Assembly (NCBI GenBank): GCA_021160245.1
Contig: JAGHCW010000044.1
Location: forward strand, 1 to 8,531
Length of the DNA: 8,531 nt
Origin: a bacterium
Lineage (GTDB): Bacteria > B130-G9
Direction: 5' to 3'
The notes beneath the pieces are model-generated. The model searched no databases, was not told the origin of the DNA, and saw nothing but the letters and a program-made list of their open reading frames with translations. This document shows, in pieces, positions 2-7,222 of this stretch (the first letter of the stretch is position 1; every line of letters begins with the position of its first letter). Both the position numbers and the translations under genes were made by a program.

Positions 2-3000
2 GACGGCTACTATGAGTTCTACACATTCGCGACAGACGAGGCGGGTAACGCTCAGGCGCCGAAGGACAGCGACGGAGATGGCTGCCAGGATGCTTATGGC
101 GCGTGCTTAAGAGATACGACCGGGCCGTGGTCGAGCGCAGAATGCACCGAGAACATCTACCCGAATCATATCGCCGCGACCTCAATAGCAGAGATTTGCT
201 ACGAGGCGGGCGATGGCAGTGGTCTGGACCTTGAGATAGTTGAGCTCTGGTTCAGGTATTACATGGCTGACTACTCCACTTGGACGCACTGGACGACCGA
301 CAGCACGCTTCGCTTCGAGGGCGCCCCTGTTGCCACGACCGGAGTGTTCATGTTCGACACGCTTGCGGGCTATGGTAACGGTGACGGCATCTACCAGTTC
401 TACACGATGGCCATGGACGAGGCGGCCAATTGGGAGCGCGTCCCGAGCTATCCGCCGAGAGATTACGATACGTATCTGATGATAGACACTACCGATCCAG
501 TTGCGGGATGCGATCTGGATACCACACCGACTAGCGGCGGTCCGATTGAGATCGGCTTCACCGCGACTGACGAACTCTCCGGTATCAACCACGTCGAACT
601 CTGCTATGCAACGTTTAGCACTGTTTGGCTTTGGGCGACGACAGGTTCGATCAGCGCGGCCGATGTCGGGACGTTCACGTTTGATCCAGAGGCTTATGGC
701 TTCTACGGTTCGGAGACATTCAGGTTCTACATCTGGGCCACGGATGTCGCTGGCAATATGTCAGCATTCCCGGCCGGCGAGGTTGGTTGTGGACCAGTAG
801 TGGTTGACAGAGACGATCCGATAATTGAGTGTGAGGCGAGTGCAGAGTATCTGCTTGGCCCAACGGTTGATATTGGCTTCGACGCCTCAGATGCCACGAC
901 CATAGTCGAGAGCGCCACCTTGTATTATAGCTTCGAGGGTTCCGACTGGGCTGACAGTGGTATTGACATCGAGAACACCACCGCGGCCAATCCGTGGGAA
1001 GATTACTCGGTCACGTTTGCGCCCGAGAATGGCGAGGGTGCTTACAGCTTCAGGTTCATCATCGTTGATAGCGTTGGCCGCACGGCTCAGTGCGAAACGA
1101 CAACCATCTTCGACGAGACGAAACCGACCACGGAGTGCACAGGCGATGACTACATAATCGGTGGAACGATTAGCGCCAGACTCTTTGGTGAGGACCCGGT
1201 TGTGGATACCCGCTCGATATCCGGCATGGACTATGTAGAGCTTTTCTACATGTTTGCCGTTGACGGCGATTTCTCCGGGCACAACTGGACAACGACCGAT
1301 GTAACAACGGCGACGATCGACACGCTCGGGTCATATCTCACGCCTGAGTGGGACCCGCCGCACGGTGACGGCTGGTATCGATTCTGCACGGTAGGTCACG
1401 ACAGGGCCGGCAACGTTGAGGACTTCCCATATCACTACGATTGGGAAGTGGCTTATGAGTCCGGCGCCTCGTTGGTGACTTCACAGTGTTGGACTCGCGG
1501 CAATCAGCGCTACTGGAATGAGGAAATCGTTCTGGAGTACATAGCGACTCCGACGACGACCGCCTTTGACCATCTTGACCTCTATTATAGGTATCAAGCG
1601 TATCCGGGCGCTGCCTGGAGCGATTGGGCGGACACGGGCTATGTCGCCTACGAGACGACTGGCATGTTCAACTTCGCCAGGTTCGATTATGGCGAGGGCC
1701 TGTATCAGTTCTACACTCATGCCTATGAGGTCTCAGGGCTGGAGGAAGAGCACAGCGCGGATCCGAACATGCGTTACGACTGCTGGGGGCATTATGACAC
1801 TACGCCGCCAGAGTCATTCGCGAGAGTGGACGCTGCGTTCCAAAACTATGAAGAGGACCACGATACGTTTATTAACGTCTCCGTTGAGTTCGACGATTAC
1901 TTGATGGTCGGCGGCTGTGGCGTGGATTGCATCGAACTGTGGTATCGCCTTGAGGGCGGCGCTTGGGAGCATACTGGCTGCGAGGCCGTCGTTGGCGCAT
2001 CACCGCAGGATGTCTTCTTTACGGCTGTGGCAGATGGCGAGTATGAGTTCTATTCGTTGACCATTGACAAGGCTGGCAACATAGAGGAGAACCCGACCGA
2101 TCGTGACGGAACCGTTATTTGGGATACTCTTGAGCCGACGGCGATTGCATCGGCGGCCGCATACTGCAACGCGGCTCCTCTAGCAGTCACCTACATTGCA
2201 GATGATACGAATCCGTCAACTCCGAACATTTCTGGCGTCGATACTGTGCGACTCTATTACATGTTCGCAGCAGACGGCCTTACTTGGCCGGGCTCATGGA
2301 CGGACACGACGCTCGTAACGGATACGGGCTCATTCGACTTCAACTTGCCGGATGGCCAGGGCGCCTACAGGTTCTATGTTGAGGCGACGGACAACGCCGG
2401 TAATGTCGAGACGTTCAATGGCGTGTTCGAGGCGGAGACCGTTTATGACACGCTGGCGCCGATCTCGACTCTGACATCACCGACGTTCGCTACCGATACG
2501 ACGGTGGACATTGTCGCAACCGGTTACGATGCCACTGCACCGTCTATTATGCCGAGTGGTCTGGCGTTCATGGAGCTATGGTTCCGCTTCTACGACAGCC
2601 CGACGGATACTTGGACGGAATGGGAGGATAGCAGCTACACCTGCACCGGCGGGACGGTCGAGTTTGACATCGATCTCTTCGGTTACGGCGAGGGCGATTA
2701 TCAGTTCTACAGCATCGCCGTTGATAATGCAGGCAACCGCGAAACAGCGCCTACTACCGCAGATGACAGCACAACAGTGGCTATCACGCTTCCGGTCTCG
2801 ATGGTTATTCCGGGCCTGACCGGTGACTACTGCAATGACGGGACTATGGAGGTTTATTATGAGGCCTCAAGTCCGGCCGCAGCGGTGGCGGATGTTGAGC
2901 TTTGGTGGCGCTATTCACCCGACGGAAACCTTGCTTGGACGTTGTGGGAGATGTTGGACGAGAATCGACCTGGGGTTATCCAAACGCCTCTCTTCTTCGC

Positions 3001-4081
3001 GGCTCCGGCGGACGTTGCGCCCTTTGACGGCGTAACAGACGAGGGCTACTTCGAGTTCTACACGATTGCCGTGGATACAGCGGGCAGCAGGGAGTTGCCT
3101 CCGATGATGGGTATGACCATTGCCGCCGACGCCGGCGTGCTGGTTGATATAACGCCCGCAGAATCGATGATAGACGTTCCAGAGTGCACGAACGATCCCG
3201 AGGTCTTGGTCCACTTCTCGGCCTTTGACTCGCTTAGCGGTTTGGCTAGGGTCGAGTTTGAGGTAGCGACTATTGCCTCAGTGTGGATGCCCACGGGTAT
3301 CTCCAGCACCCAGTCATCTGGCGTGATGGTGTTCGAGCCTCCGGCTGACGGCACATATTGGCTGACAACGGTTGCTTACGACAAGGCGGGTAATGTTGAG
3401 GGCGACAAGGACGAACGTTCCATGGCGCTTGTTTATGACACGATTGCTCCTGAGACCACGCTCACAAGAACTGTGGCGGCCTCGCGGACAGTCCCGATAC
3501 CTGTTGACTTTGCTGTCCTTGAAGAGGGCTGTGGAGTTTCCGAGGTCAGAGTTTACTTTAAGAATAACCCGAACGATGCAGTCTGGATGGATTGCGGTAT
3601 CAGTAATACGAGTCCTGATGGCACAATAAACTTTGTCCCGCCAGGTCTTGCCCAGGGCCGCTACTTCCTTGCTGCACAGACAACAGATGTTGCGGGCAAT
3701 GTTGAGATGCTTCCAGCGGTCGGCGACTGGGATGTGGATGTTATCTATGACATCACGCCACCGGTTACGACTGTTCCGGACCCCGCCACGATGCTGCTTG
3801 ATGACTGTGAGACCATTGAGGTCTCGTATGTGGCAACAGACTATATTGGGGACGATCCATATAGTAATCTGATTGGCCAAGTTGCTCTGTTCTACAAGCA
3901 TGAGGATGGCCCGTGGACCGATAGCCTCTTAAGGGAGTATGGGGACACAGGCGCGTTTGCGTTCACACCGCCTGAGGCAGATGGCATCTACTACTTCACA
4001 TTGACAGCCGAGGACATTGCAGGAAATGACGAGGCCTTCGTCCCGACGGACTTTGGCATGGCCTTCCTCATGTTTGACAGC
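2..4081 (+). repeat. Tandem array of 13 degenerate Ig-like modules (first one partial)
   Basis: These are protein-level repeats with little long nucleotide identity. Complete modules span roughly 119-490, 491-811, 812-1117, 1118-1465, 1466-1798, 1799-2128, 2129-2452, 2453-2788, 2789-3151, 3152-3442, 3443-3754 and 3755-4081, that is 97-124 residues each. The common plan is a Pro at the DT-x-P boundary, often a Cys soon after, an alternating hydrophobic strand, a VELWYR-like strand, a Trp pair, a G-x-F-x-F strand, then G-[DE]-G-x-Y-x-F-Y-x-x-A-x-D-x-A-G-N. Nine of the 13 signature copies keep Ala-Gly-Asn. The others read AAN, VGR, VSG and AGS. Alternating strands and the closing Y-x-F-Y...D strand fit an Ig or fibronectin-III type beta sandwich, used in bacteria as rigid stalks or adhesive arms. 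The fold is inferred from pattern; the repetition itself is read directly. Confidence 0.88.
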
Positions 4082-6727
4082 GAGGCTCCGTATGTCGAAA
4101 GCGACAGCATTCAGCCACCGGCGGGTTCAGTCGGCGTTCAGAGAGATGCGAACATTGAGTTCACGCTGGTTGATGACGGTTATGGAGTTGATGTTAGTAG
4201 CGTGCTGGTTGAAGTGATAGACCGCTTCGGCCGGAACATAACTGCCTCAAGCATCACGATGAACGCGAATGGTGATGGCACCGTTGATGTGATTTTTGAT
4301 CCTCATGGCGTCTTCTCATACGAAGATGAGATCACGGTTTATGTGACCGCTTGTGATCTCGTGCCGTCAGGCGTGTCTGGTAACTGTGAGAATTGCATGA
4401 CTTCGCCAGACCCGTGGACCTTCTATGTAACAGATAGGCAGCTGCCGGCGCTTTCCGAGGGTAGCGTTACACCTCAGGTCGGTTATGTGCCTCGTAACAC
4501 AGAATTCACGCTTGAGGTCATGTACTACAGTCCAACCATGGAACCGCCAACGACGAAGCTGGCTTATGTTGACGGTGTATCCCATGAGATGGAGCTTGTT
4601 TCGGGCGATGCGTGGAATGGCTACTACCAGGTCGCGGTAAGCGGTCTTGAGGCCGGAGTGCATGGTTATTACTTCCTGTTTGCAACCGCTGGTGGCGATC
4701 AGGCGAGATGGCCGGCCGTGGGCAGTCAAGATGGCCCGACTGTATATGAGACGATGTCCACCACGCTCACTTGTTCCGTGGCGCCGTTGAATCCGACAGT
4801 ATTCGGTTCAGTCGTCATTTCCGGAACATTGGGCATGGGCGCTACAGAGGAGACGATTGCCATAGCGCTTACGACTCCTATAACCATGATCATGGGAACG
4901 GCTGTTACGGGCGAGGGTGGCGAATATACTTACGAGGCTTCAGTATCGGTAGTCGGCCCGTGGTCAGTAAGTGCTACTTGGTCAGGTGATGATGAGTACG
5001 GCCCAGTTGAGAGCGCGATAGAGCAATTCAACGTAAGCCGGGCGCCAACTGCCATTGAGCTTGATGTGTCTGCGCAGACCGTAGCAATGGGCGAGTCGGT
5101 TGACATTTCTGGTCGATTGATTGCCGATCCGCTATTCACTGATGGCGTTGTTTACATTGAGTTTGTTAATCCAGCAGGCGAGCGCTTCGAAGGCGTTGAA
5201 GTGGAGCTCTTGCCGGATGGCGCGTTCGAGCTGCCTGACTTTGATATGCTCACGCTGTTGGGGACCTGGCAGATAATAGCGGTGTTCGATGGAACCGCAG
5301 AGTATGACTCGGCAGAGTCAGATCCGGTTCCTGTGGTTGTTAGCGGCGGCGACGCTGCTGTGATTATCCACGGGTATTCGCACCTATCCAGGGCGCGTGA
5401 CGACAAGCACTTCACCGCAGAATACGCTTATCAGGCGTTGCGTCGCAGAGGGCTGAGCCACGATGATATTCACTATCTAAGCATCAGAGAGGATTCGGAG
5501 TACAGGGATGCGCCGTCCAATAGGGATGAGTATCAGATTGTCTTCAACCAGCTGATGGCCAGGGCGAATACCGGTAGGGCGCCGGAGACGTTGTATATCA
5601 TTCTGATTGGCGAGATGACGACACCTGGAAGCTCGTTCAAGTTGAGTAATAGCGAAACATTGACTTACTCAAAGCTTCAAGCTGAGCTCCAGTCGCTTAA
5701 GAACATTGCTCCGTCGATGAAGACAATCGGACTCATGGCGTTCAATCGCTCAGAGCTCTTCGCAGATGGCCTATCCTCCTGGCTGGATGATAGCGTCTTC
5801 ATAGCGACGACAACTGATCCTGGATACAGCTATCCTGGACCTAAGCACGGCGATCTGTTCACGGCGGAGTTCCTCTCAGCAATCGCATCGGAGAAGCCGG
5901 TCGAGATGGCGTTCAACATGGCATGTGATTCTGTAAAGGCGCTGCACGGAGCGCAAGAGCCGATCCTGTATGATAGCAGCGGGCTTGCTCCGACCAGTTA
6001 CGTTGGTTCCTGGACGATTAGGGGCGATATGGCGCCGGTAATCGTTGACCATTCAGAGGGCATGACGTACGCCGAGACATCTACACCGCCGACGGTGCAG
6101 CTCTGGGCAAGGACGGAAGACGACGTGATGGTCGAGCAGGCGTATGCGTTGATTATGATGCCTGCATACGATCCAGCGGCCGAGCCGTTCACCGGAGAGG
6201 GCGGACTTATCAAGCAGACGTTGACGAGGCGCGTAGGCGGTTATTGGACGGGGTCGTTCGAGATTCCCAATCCTGGGGAATACAAAGTGGCTTATATGGC
6301 CATTGACAACGTCGGTAATGTCACTGAGCTCGCAACAACGACCTATGTGATGGCGAGCATCGATATGGAGATAGCCCTCAATGGCTACACGTTCAATCCG
6401 GGTGATACTGTTCAGGTGAGTGTCGGCTATGAGAACAACGTCGGTGTTGACGTGGATGTTGATTTCTATCTAGTAATCAACTTCCCGAATAGCGATTTGA
6501 TGCTCTTTGTGAATGGTATGGCCGGATATTCCTTCGATACTGGCGCGCCGTTCTACTCAGGTGTCCTGCCGCCGGGTGAGATGCCGCTTATGCCAATTCA
6601 TTGGCTGCCAATACCGGAAGTCGGGCTGGACTACGGCCTCTATACTTGGTATGCGGTATGCACGGAGCCGGGCACGCTGAACATCATGGGTGAAGGCGCC
6701 ACGGCCGCTATGGACCTGCAGCCCTAA
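2..6727 (+). CDS. Giant modular extracellular protein (5'-partial): Ig-like repeat array plus inactive C13/caspase-like domain
   Basis: The frame is open from the first complete codon to the TAA at 6725-6727, giving 2241 visible residues. The true start and any N-terminal signal peptide lie to the left of the window, so the internal ATG at 263 is not the start. Domain order: tail of one Ig-like module and twelve complete modules (to 4081), a bacterial Ig-like domain (4082-4435), a beta-rich domain with a Tyr-Tyr-Phe core (4436-4750), two further Ig-like domains (4751-5341), a C13/caspase-fold-like domain (5342-6028), another Ig-like domain (6029-6355) and a C-terminal domain (6356-6724). The protein is acidic and rich in Asp, Thr, Tyr and Trp, with no transmembrane helix, which fits secretion and a surface or adhesive role (inference). 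No LPXTG, PEP-CTERM or recognisable type IX sorting signal is seen at the end. The architecture is familiar from uncultured bacteria, but substrate and partner are unknown. A strong terminator follows at 6762-6802. Confidence 0.93.
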   Translation, partial: DGYYEFYTFATDEAGNAQAPKDSDGDGCQDAYGACLRDTTGPWSSAECTENIYPNHIAATSIAEICYEAGDGSGLDLEIVELWFRYYMADYSTWTHWTTDSTLRFEGAPVATTGVFMFDTLAGYGNGDGIYQFYTMAMDEAANWERVPSYPPRDYDTYLMIDTTDPVAGCDLDTTPTSGGPIEIGFTATDELSGINHVELCYATFSTVWLWATTGSISAADVGTFTFDPEAYGFYGSETFRFYIWATDVAGNMSAFPAGEVGCGPVVVDRDDPIIECEASAEYLLGPTVDIGFDASDATTIVESATLYYSFEGSDWADSGIDIENTTAANPWEDYSVTFAPENGEGAYSFRFIIVDSVGRTAQCETTTIFDETKPTTECTGDDYIIGGTISARLFGEDPVVDTRSISGMDYVELFYMFAVDGDFSGHNWTTTDVTTATIDTLGSYLTPEWDPPHGDGWYRFCTVGHDRAGNVEDFPYHYDWEVAYESGASLVTSQCWTRGNQRYWNEEIVLEYIATPTTTAFDHLDLYYRYQAYPGAAWSDWADTGYVAYETTGMFNFARFDYGEGLYQFYTHAYEVSGLEEEHSADPNMRYDCWGHYDTTPPESFARVDAAFQNYEEDHDTFINVSVEFDDYLMVGGCGVDCIELWYRLEGGAWEHTGCEAVVGASPQDVFFTAVADGEYEFYSLTIDKAGNIEENPTDRDGTVIWDTLEPTAIASAAAYCNAAPLAVTYIADDTNPSTPNISGVDTVRLYYMFAADGLTWPGSWTDTTLVTDTGSFDFNLPDGQGAYRFYVEATDNAGNVETFNGVFEAETVYDTLAPISTLTSPTFATDTTVDIVATGYDATAPSIMPSGLAFMELWFRFYDSPTDTWTEWEDSSYTCTGGTVEFDIDLFGYGEGDYQFYSIAVDNAGNRETAPTTADDSTTVAITLPVSMVIPGLTGDYCNDGTMEVYYEASSPAAAVADVELWWRYSPDGNLAWTLWEMLDENRPGVIQTPLFFAAPADVAPFDGVTDEGYFEFYTIAVDTAGSRELPPMMGMTIAADAGVLVDITPAESMIDVPECTNDPEVLVHFSAFDSLSGLARVEFEVATIASVWMPTGISSTQSSGVMVFEPPADGTYWLTTVAYDKAGNVEGDKDERSMALVYDTIAPETTLTRTVAASRTVPIPVDFAVLEEGCGVSEVRVYFKNNPNDAVWMDCGISNTSPDGTINFVPPGLAQGRYFLAAQTTDVAGNVEMLPAVGDWDVDVIYDITPPVTTVPDPATMLLDDCETIEVSYVATDYIGDDPYSNLIGQVALFYKHEDGPWTDSLLREYGDTGAFAFTPPEADGIYYFTLTAEDIAGNDEAFVPTDFGMAFLMFDSEAPYVESDSIQPPAGSVGVQRDANIEFTLVDDGYGVDVSSVLVEVIDRFGRNITASSITMNANGDGTVDVIFDPHGVFSYEDEITVYVTACDLVPSGVSGNCENCMTSPDPWTFYVTDRQLPALSEGSVTPQVGYVPRNTEFTLEVMYYSPTMEPPTTKLAYVDGVSHEMELVSGDAWNGYYQVAVSGLEAGVHGYYFLFATAGGDQARWPAVGSQDGPTVYETMSTTLTCSVAPLNPTVFGSVVISGTLGMGATEETIAIALTTPITMIMGTAVTGEGGEYTYEASVSVVGPWSVSATWSGDDEYGPVESAIEQFNVSRAPTAIELDVSAQTVAMGESVDISGRLIADPLFTDGVVYIEFVNPAGERFEGVEVELLPDGAFELPDFDMLTLLGTWQIIAVFDGTAEYDSAESDPVPVVVSGGDAAVIIHGYSHLSRARDDKHFTAEYAYQALRRRGLSHDDIHYLSIREDSEYRDAPSNRDEYQIVFNQLMARANTGRAPETLYIILIGEMTTPGSSFKLSNSETLTYSKLQAELQSLKNIAPSMKTIGLMAFNRSELFADGLSSWLDDSVFIATTTDPGYSYPGPKHGDLFTAEFLSAIASEKPVEMAFNMACDSVKALHGAQEPILYDSSGLAPTSYVGSWTIRGDMAPVIVDHSEGMTYAETSTPPTVQLWARTEDDVMVEQAYALIMMPAYDPAAEPFTGEGGLIKQTLTRRVGGYWTGSFEIPNPGEYKVAYMAIDNVGNVTELATTTYVMASIDMEIALNGYTFNPGDTVQVSVGYENNVGVDVDVDFYLVINFPNSDLMLFVNGMAGYSFDTGAPFYSGVLPPGEMPLMPIHWLPIPEVGLDYGLYTWYAVCTEPGTLNIMGEGATAAMDLQP
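65..91 (+). other. Possible calcium-binding loop, DSDGDGCQD, in inter-module linker
   Basis: The link between the first (partial) module and the next reads DSDGDGCQD. This D-x-D-x-D/G-x-x-D spacing is typical of thrombospondin type 3-like and dockerin-like calcium loops in bacterial surface proteins. A second Cys follows seven residues later (codon at 104), so a small disulfide loop is possible. Only one such loop occurs in the visible protein; the other module junctions use a plain DT-x-P linker. Confidence 0.4.
4082..4435 (+). other. Bacterial Ig-like domain within the giant protein
   Basis: About 118 residues follow the module array and lack its Y-x-F-Y...AGN signature. The segment opens with P-Y-V-E-S and a P-P-A-G-S-V-G-V turn. 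It then has an IEFTLVDDGYGVD strand, a V-x-V-E-V-I-D strand, an F-D-P...F-S-Y-E-D-E-I-T-V-Y-V strand, and ends W-T-F-Y-V-T-D. This order (pre-strand with P-x-x-G, I-x-F-x-L-x-D, then E-x-V-T-V-x-V-x-A) is what I expect of Big-type or cadherin-like domains in bacterial exoproteins. A cluster of Cys residues lies near 4351-4396. Domain type is inferred. Confidence 0.6.
4436..4750 (+). other. Beta-rich domain with Y-Y-F hairpin (surface-protein accessory domain)
   Basis: About 105 residues begin with a G-S-V-T-P-Q-V-G-Y segment, followed by an E-F-T-L-E-V-M-Y-Y strand, an A-Y-V-D-G turn, and G-V-H-G-Y-Y-F-L-F near 4654-4680. It closes with R-W-P-A-V-G and G-P-T-V. A similar order (S-V-x-P...G, F-x-V-x-Y, D-G, then H-x-Y-Y-F, then R-x-P...G-P) occurs, from my general knowledge, in large exoproteins of uncultured bacteria and archaea beside Ig-like and protease-like domains. 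The name of the family is not certain to me. It probably serves as a structural spacer. Confidence 0.5.
4751..5341 (+). other. Two tandem Ig-like domains preceding the protease-like domain
   Basis: Two units of about 96 and 101 residues (4751-5038 and 5039-5341) share a plan: T-x-L/I with alternating hydrophobics, a G-S/E-x-V-x-I-S-G strand, a central substrate-like strand, then G-P/T-W-x-[VI]-x-A and a D-D/T-x-E-Y-x-x-x-E-S end. The repeated pair VVISGTL / VDISGRL and the repeated W-S-V-S-A-T-W-S-G-D-D-E-Y / W-Q-I-I-A-V-F-D-G-T-A-E-Y are the clearest evidence that they are homologous. This resembles the carboxypeptidase-regulatory or Big_3-like sandwich often placed just before catalytic domains in secreted proteins (inference). 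Confidence 0.6.
5342..6028 (+). other. C13 (legumain/caspase-fold)-like domain, both catalytic residues apparently lost
   Basis: About 229 residues within the giant protein. The layout matches what I know of bacterial C13-like domains at this position: AVIIHG first strand, a helix with A-E-Y-A-Y-Q-A-L, D-D-I-H-Y-L-S, a Y-I-I-L-I strand, F-K-L...E-T-L-T-Y-S-K-L, an I-G-L-M-A-F strand, F-I-A-T-T-T-D, F-T-A-E-F-L-S-A-I, and M-A-F-N-M-A-C-D-S. In active members the strand after the helix ends D-H-G (catalytic His) and the next core strand ends D-A-C (catalytic Cys). Here these read I-G-E-M (5606-5617) and M-A-F (5735-5743), so His appears replaced by Glu or Met and Cys by Phe. This domain is thus probably a non-catalytic binding or structural module. 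The alignment is by eye. Confidence 0.7.
6029..6355 (+). other. Ig-like domain following the C13-like domain
   Basis: About 109 residues begin M-A-P-V-I and contain T-V-Q-L-W-A-R-T, an A-Y-A-L-I-M-M-P strand, G-Y-W-T-G-S-F-E-I-P-N-P-G-E-Y-K-V-A-Y-M-A-I-D-N-V-G-N-V, ending E-L-A-T-T-T-Y-V. The Y-x-V-x-Y-x-A-x-D-x-x-G-N strand is the same closing signature as in the N-terminal modules, so this is another Ig-like unit, although its W-x-G-S-F-E-I-P version is typical of the domain that sits directly behind C13-like domains. Its constant place there supports the identification of the preceding domain. Confidence 0.6.
6356..6724 (+). other. C-terminal domain of the giant protein
   Basis: About 123 residues: M-E-I-A-L-N-G-Y-T-F-N-P-G-D-T-V-Q-V-S-V, then a V-D-F-Y-L-V-I-N-F-P strand, a G-V-L-P-P-G-E-M linker, and G-L-Y-T-W-Y-A-V-C-T-E-P-G-T-L-N. 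The pattern (N-x-x-x-F-x-x-G-D-x-x-x-V-x-V ... D-x-Y-x-x-I-x-x-P ... L-P-x-G ... G-x-Y-T-W-Y-A) is one I recognise as a beta-sandwich end domain of exoproteins from uncultured bacteria. It may serve in secretion or surface retention, but no known sorting signal is recognisable and no hydrophobic anchor ends the protein. Function is not known. Confidence 0.5.
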
Positions 6728-6739
6728 GCGCTGGGACTG

Positions 6740-7222
6740 ATGACTATTAGAAAAATGTATGGGAGGGGACCGGCATTCGCCGGGCCCCTCCTTTTCTTTA
6801 TTGTGCTTTCCCTTGTATTCACCTCTTGCCAGAGGGAGGCGACCAAAGAAGAGCGGTATGAGTCTCTCAAGTTATGCGTCAATACTTACTGGGAGAAGAG
6901 AGCGAAGGGCGAGGTCTGGCGAGAGGATACAGACAGCTGTTGTGCGACCGTTGAAATTGAGCAGAAGAACAGTGGAAAGACCCGCATTGATCCCATTGCC
7001 TCCCAGATCGTAGTTGAACGCTTCAATCTCACCGACCTGATTATGAGTGACGATCTGACGACAGGAACGGTCAGCGTATGGCTGGAGTACTCCATCCCGG
7101 TCATTCCCACGTCGCTAAACAAGACGATTACCGAGAAATGGGACTGGAGAGAGGGGTGTTGGCGCCGCCGCGCAAGCAACCTCAACGCTGTCCTCGCCGG
7201 CGCCTCAAGCGGATCCGACTGA
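6740..7222 (+). CDS. Small predicted lipoprotein, NTF2/SnoaL-like tail possible
   Basis: 160 residues from ATG 6740 to TGA 7220-7222. The N-terminus is a lipoprotein-type signal: basic residues (R4, K5, R9), a hydrophobic stretch G-P-L-L-F-F-I-V-L-S-L-V-F, then T-S-C with Cys30 as the probable lipidated residue. Position -3 is Phe rather than the usual Leu, a weaker lipobox, and Gln at +2 would favour the outer membrane. The mature part has Y-W-E-K-R-A-K-G-E-V-W-R near the start and K-W-D-W-R-E-G-C-W-R-R-R near the end. That resembles small lipoproteins with a cystatin/NTF2-like fold where a Y-W-x-x-R and a W-x-x-x-G-x-W-x-R frame the domain (inference). ATG 6740 follows the giant gene by 12 bases with only GGGA 3 bases upstream, so translational coupling is likely. 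ATG 6755 is an alternative start. Downstream starts, such as GTG 6803, would destroy the signal peptide. The 3' end overlaps lpxK by 18 bases. Confidence 0.72.
   Translation: MTIRKMYGRGPAFAGPLLFFIVLSLVFTSCQREATKEERYESLKLCVNTYWEKRAKGEVWREDTDSCCATVEIEQKNSGKTRIDPIASQIVVERFNLTDLIMSDDLTTGTVSVWLEYSIPVIPTSLNKTITEKWDWREGCWRRRASNLNAVLAGASSGSD
6762..6802 (+). terminator. Strong intrinsic terminator inside the lipoprotein start region
   Basis: Arms 6762-6774 (GGAGGGGACCGGC) and 6779-6791 (GCCGGGCCCCTCC) pair over 12 of 13 positions, with one A-G mismatch, around an ATTC loop. The 3' arm is followed at once by TTTTCTTTATT (6792-6802). GC-rich stem plus T run is a textbook rho-independent terminator. It lies 35 bases after the stop of the giant gene and so very probably ends that transcript. 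It also lies wholly within codons 8-21 of the lipoprotein frame, so any messenger reading through or starting upstream has this hairpin in its coding region. Confidence 0.85.

Follow-up and report, generated by a model that had tools for sequence, protein, structure and literature searches.

The closest described systems to the domain reported here are the C13 peptidases (legumain or asparaginyl endopeptidase, and the GPI transamidase PIG-K; PF01650) and the pseudo-orthocaspases of bacteria. In clan CD, strand beta3 ends in the catalytic His and strand beta4 in the catalytic Cys, and all families conserve the Gly beside the His (PMC4357240). In pseudo-orthocaspases, Tyr and Ser take the places of the His and Cys (PMC6426788). 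The domain in question is encoded at positions 5342–6028 of contig JAGHCW010000044.1 (G000:C77) from a draft assembly of an uncultured bacterium that, judging by its family assignment, belongs to Candidatus Coatesbacteria; genes were read on this contig in its entirety (8531 bp), referred to here as the window. It resembles the C13 peptidases in fold, in the order of its secondary structure elements and in the positions of its His and Cys loops, but its His, its Cys and the Gly after the His have all been replaced, and identity to these peptidases is about 13%. With the pseudo-orthocaspases it shares being a bacterial clan CD domain with a replaced His-Cys dyad. These, however, have a C14-type (C14B) p20 domain with Tyr and Ser replacements and no immunoglobulin (Ig)-like stalk, whereas the window domain and its orthologues carry Glu or Gln with Asn or Asp and find their best match in a legumain-type protein. 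Clan CD pseudoproteases in bacteria are already known, and the window domain adds a C13-type case. We consider it probable that it is a non-peptidase homologue of the C13 (legumain) peptidases located near the C terminus of a giant Ig-stalk protein, where it would be used for binding or structure. The domain and its key codons are:

5342–6028, + strand: domain of the C13 (legumain) fold that has lost the catalytic dyad, identified by hidden Markov model (HMM), AlphaFold2, Foldseek and VIA-align
5612–5614, + strand: Glu codon where the catalytic His is expected (G-E-M instead of D-H-G) in all alignments, directly after beta3 and Gly91 of the model
5744–5746, + strand: Asn codon most likely at the catalytic Cys site, where Y-G-A-C reads M-A-F-N (model residue 136)
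5924–5926, + strand: the domain's one Cys, lying in a helix (model residues 188–203); Tyr in orthologues

The fold was predicted with AlphaFold2 from the window domain aligned with eleven related ones, giving a model with a pLDDT (predicted local distance difference test) of 84 and a pTM (predicted template modelling score) of 0.85. The top Foldseek match of this model was human legumain (4.9e-9), and VIA-align gave Z scores of 20.2 against plant asparaginyl endopeptidase and 20.1 against legumain over approximately 205 residues, with a root-mean-square deviation of 2.8 A. The order of strands and helices is that of C13, as a preliminary description made from the sequence alone had proposed, and the topology is that of the caspase/haemoglobinase fold, with the His site after beta3 and the Cys site after beta4. 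Strand beta3 (84–90) is followed by Gly91-Glu92-Met93, while beta4 (128–134) is followed by Phe135-Asn136 and then by a helix (138–146). Neither gingipain (C25) nor CHAT was among the 50 fold matches listed, which does not exclude them. A search for an intact His-Cys pair elsewhere in the domain, or for indications of an unrelated fold, was negative.

Homology to C13 peptidases was also detected at the sequence level, through intermediates. Direct Pfam and NCBIfam searches with the domain returned no match, and PF01650 does not recognise it; the PF01650 comparison suggested in the preliminary description thus failed in its direct form and succeeded by way of intact relatives that do pass this profile. 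Scanning genome contigs with the window domain as a single sequence found no relative, nor did a scan of viral contigs and a tblastn search of plasmids. A PDB sequence search with the single domain was no more useful, and hits to designed repeat proteins and unrelated chains were put down to chance. Orthologues of the domain, 51–54% identical, were found in two genomes of the same family (L003 and L004), and a profile (A1) of these three Coatesbacteria domains retrieved an intact homologue, L008, which reads LYVVMIDHG...VVIYGACHSGSF and has similar-looking Ig modules ahead of its C13 domain. In tblastn, L008 matched L003 with an E value of 2e-9 and L004 with 5e-8. Among the intact relatives, several passed the PF01650 cut-off (they come from Hydrogenedentota, Desulfotignum and Deltaproteobacteria RBG_13_61_14), and a profile of all relatives (A4) reached legumain and GPI transamidase in the PDB with an E value of about 3e-5. 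An HMM built only from 47 domains with an intact dyad scored the three Coatesbacteria domains at 72.8 (window), 77.0 and 72.1 bits; since the best of 1000 shuffles reached 5.4 bits, the similarity is more than chance. On these sequence comparisons, the link from the window domain to C13 via intermediate sequences is solid.

The residues at the two sites were assigned from sequence alignments together with the positions of the elements in the model. At the His site every alignment places the Glu of 5612–5614, as had been noticed beforehand, and the orthologues have Glu or Gln there; the Gly next to the His is Met in the window, and Met or Ser among the three Coatesbacteria domains. For the Cys site the preliminary description was right that the Cys is lost but had the register one residue off, naming Phe 5741–5743. 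In both MAFFT and HMM alignments (YGACHSGSF against MAFNRSELF) it is Asn 5744–5746 that falls on the Cys and the Phe that falls on the preceding Ala, so that Asn is most likely the residue at this site, although neither reading restores a Cys. Both orthologues have Asp at this position. The dyad residues are therefore E/N, E/D and Q/D by genome, with the His-Cys pair gone in three of three, and the window domain has neither the catalytic His with its following Gly nor the catalytic Cys. The only Cys of the domain had been placed in a helix rather than at the catalytic strand, which the model bears out, and it is not catalytic.

The reading frame containing the domain, described beforehand as intact, is indeed open throughout and is open in all three genomes. 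Synonymous sites were saturated in comparisons with the window. Between L003 and L004, the closer pair of orthologues, the ratio of nonsynonymous to synonymous substitution (dN/dS, Nei-Gojobori) was 0.10 for the domain, 0.15 for the 380 codons upstream and 0.22 downstream. The open frames and low dN/dS indicate that the domain is not a pseudogene. Residues identical in all three orthologues number 115/229. Among the loops, identity across the three was 7/13 in L1, 9/16 in L5, 2/8 in L3 and 2/5 in L4, the last two being the catalytic ones. Conservation of L1 and L5, loops of the former cleft, thus comes close to that of the whole domain, and that of L3 and L4 falls below it, which with three sequences is only a hint. 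Taken with the fold, the homology to intact relatives and the dyad loss in three genomes, this purifying selection upholds the proposal that an Ig-like stalk carries a C13-fold pseudoprotease.

The Ig-type C13-like domains L065–L069 of Hydrogenedentota have significant sequence similarity to the window domain, a beta-rich post-domain and the best neighbouring positions in the tree, and Ig modules stand ahead of the domain in L065 as in L008; they differ in retaining the His-Gly (DHG or NHG) and the Cys (GAC or GSC), and presumably they are active. More generally, intact Hydrogenedentota relatives have the same layout of Ig modules, C13 domain and beta-rich domain. A survey of 68 Hydrogenedentota genomes together with the earlier loci gave 75 domains with scores of 60 bits or higher; both dyad residues are present in 47 of them, and 28 lack one or both. 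In lower-scoring domains the register at the two sites cannot be relied on (in L045, L130 and L168, for example, the Cys is one residue off), and the tree was therefore limited to these 75. Eleven Hydrogenedentota proteins (L140, L145, L146, L148, L149, L150, L153, L155, L156, L158 and L166) have an intact first C13 domain followed about 330 amino acids later by a degenerate second one, which lacks the His and mostly also the Cys; in a twelfth tandem protein, L163, both domains are degenerate. These second domains resemble the window domain in having a C13 fold by homology, a lost dyad and a place in long proteins, but they are paired with an intact copy and form their own clade in the best tree, a separation that the approximately unbiased (AU) test does not support. 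The same tree joins the Coatesbacteria domains, whose stem is long (2.05 changes per column), to intact single-domain proteins, a grouping with an SH-aLRT (Shimodaira-Hasegawa-like approximate likelihood ratio test) value of 85, or 98 with one long row omitted. Forcing all degenerate domains into one clade was narrowly rejected (p-AU 0.038, the group having been picked after seeing the tree), while forcing the Coatesbacteria domains together with the tandem second domains was not (p-AU 0.42). Repeated loss of the dyad is likely from these trees but not proven.

Two further arrangements were seen. A single protein of genome G267 (L009/L038) has three tandem C13-like domains, none with a full dyad. 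Seven short frames of about 270–540 amino acids in Hydrogenedentota (L129, L131, L132, L169, L170, L171 and L173) have a GHGS motif and Ser at the C13 Cys position; by sequence these are perhaps a further variant, the register being uncertain at such low scores.

The arrangement in Hydrogenedentota raises the question of whether the window domain belongs to an active/pseudo pair. In that case the N-terminal part of the protein that is absent from the assembly would contain an intact C13 domain, which the degenerate copy would regulate or position. Such a pairing would match the intact-first, degenerate-second order of the eleven proteins and is compatible with the AU test on the grouping with their second domains, and none of the three Coatesbacteria assemblies contains the 5' end of the gene. 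However, the preliminary description had suggested looking for an active version in the same genome, and a search of four genomes of the family, of which two are about 95% complete, turned up no further C13 domain (in G002, 86% complete, no C13 domain at all was found). Tandem spacing is also only about 330 amino acids, yet the roughly 1,780 amino acids of stalk 5' of the window domain hold no second C13 domain, and in the best tree the Coatesbacteria domains group with single-domain proteins whose dyad is intact. We regard a pairing of this kind as improbable. Slightly less probable again is that the domain is decaying and functionless, merely tolerated within a long stalk, as the length of the Coatesbacteria stem and the poor conservation of former catalytic loops L3 and L4 might suggest; the frame is nevertheless intact in three genomes, the predicted fold is confident, half of the residues are identical in all three, and dN/dS is no higher than in the modules on either side. 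That catalysis persists with the replaced residues is highly implausible. Although acidic or amide residues occupy both sites in all three orthologues, they vary from one to the next, the adjacent Gly is lost, the Cys site has no thiol or hydroxyl nucleophile, and loops L3 and L4 drift.

A non-peptidase domain retained for binding or structure accounts best for these observations, and some points weigh against it: the missing 5' end leaves room for an intact second domain further upstream in the same protein, posterior confidence at the His site of the HMM alignment is middling, and with only three orthologues known the conservation of the cleft loops has little power. On the pseudoprotease reading, the ancestor would have been an intact protease of the layout now seen in Hydrogenedentota. 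In the Coatesbacteria lineage the His would then have changed to Glu or Gln, the Cys to Asn or Asp and the Gly beside the His to Met or Ser, with the dyad-less domain being retained between the Ig-like modules and the beta-rich post-domain. It would now serve as a binding or structural module, possibly a spacer between modules, on the long Ig-like stalk of an exported protein, and presumably has no peptidase activity. Such a role would be in keeping with pseudoenzymes in general and with the bacterial pseudo-orthocaspases.

Word searches of the literature, with most subscription journals outside their scope, found no description of bacterial C13 pseudoproteases or of the tandem arrangement. 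Tentatively, secreted C13-fold pseudoproteases may represent a recurrent, undescribed class in little-known bacterial phyla, solitary and conserved in Coatesbacteria and, in Hydrogenedentota, paired with an intact C13 domain in the same chain, the dead copy there possibly acting as a regulator or dimer partner. c-FLIP, which acts on caspase-8, offers an analogue of such a built-in regulator or dimer partner. The existence of intact relatives with the same layout makes it possible to ask what the legumain fold does once cutting is lost. The intact/degenerate pairs of Hydrogenedentota make intramolecular regulation directly testable and are a more interesting lead than the window domain itself.

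The remaining features of the window are:

2–6727, + strand: 3' part of the giant gene, an open reading frame that is open at the 5' edge of the contig
2–4807, + strand: N-terminal stalk of tandem Ig-like/OmpL47-type modules (Pfam Big_13 in 4 stretches and Big_3_2; NCBIfam barrel_OmpL47)
4808–5035, + strand: Big_3_5-type Ig-like module (Big_3_5, E 6.4e-6, under the curated cut-off)
within 4808–5341, + strand: second Ig-like module, immediately 5' of the C13 domain; by eye, a similar stretch precedes the C13 domain of the intact homologue L008
6029–6352, + strand: beta-rich, Ig-like post-domain, collinear with intact relatives (A5 alignment), with an OmpL47-like tail
6353–6724, + strand: C-terminal module, occurring in many further proteins of the same genomes, mostly at the extreme protein end
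6740–7222, + strand: small predicted lipoprotein gene, 12 bp 3' of the giant gene, without a Pfam family
after the lipoprotein gene, opposite strand: lpxK (PF02606, E 2.8e-84)

The stalk had been described as having at least 13 Ig-like modules, and 13 motifs of the D-x-A-G-N type were counted in it by eye. Big_13, Big_3_2 and barrel_OmpL47 all scored above cut-off, which places the protein with Ig-like (Big) modular surface proteins having tandem Big/OmpL47-type modules. The stalk is truncated by the 5' contig end; the orthologous contig G003:C245 adds approximately 110 residues upstream, with the start still not reached. The post-domain, also expected from the preliminary description, is a beta-rich downstream domain common to the intact relatives. 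In a second model, covering the C13 domain and post-domain (overall pLDDT 77, pTM 0.67), it is again beta-rich, with strands at 235–238, 252–259, 265–273, 290–297, 302–308, 315–323 and 328–336.

The giant protein is probably exported to the cell surface or outside the cell. A search of the four Coatesbacteria genomes for SprA (TIGR04189), the outer-membrane protein of the type IX secretion system, gave no hit; control genomes likewise gave no match over the cut-off, so this negative says little about the export route. The lipoprotein gene is the downstream neighbour in both orthologous loci too (L003 313–795; L004 307–786), at 48–49% identity. The C-terminal module (also L103, L104, L106 and L107) has 8–30 matches per Coatesbacteria genome at E 0.01, often 0–6 residues from the protein end, as expected of a sorting or anchoring signal. 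The Ig-like stalk matches 51–111 places per genome in the Coatesbacteria genomes G000–G003, the longest of the open frames concerned reaching 6033 amino acids, and by these sequence matches the four genomes hold many giant Ig-module proteins.

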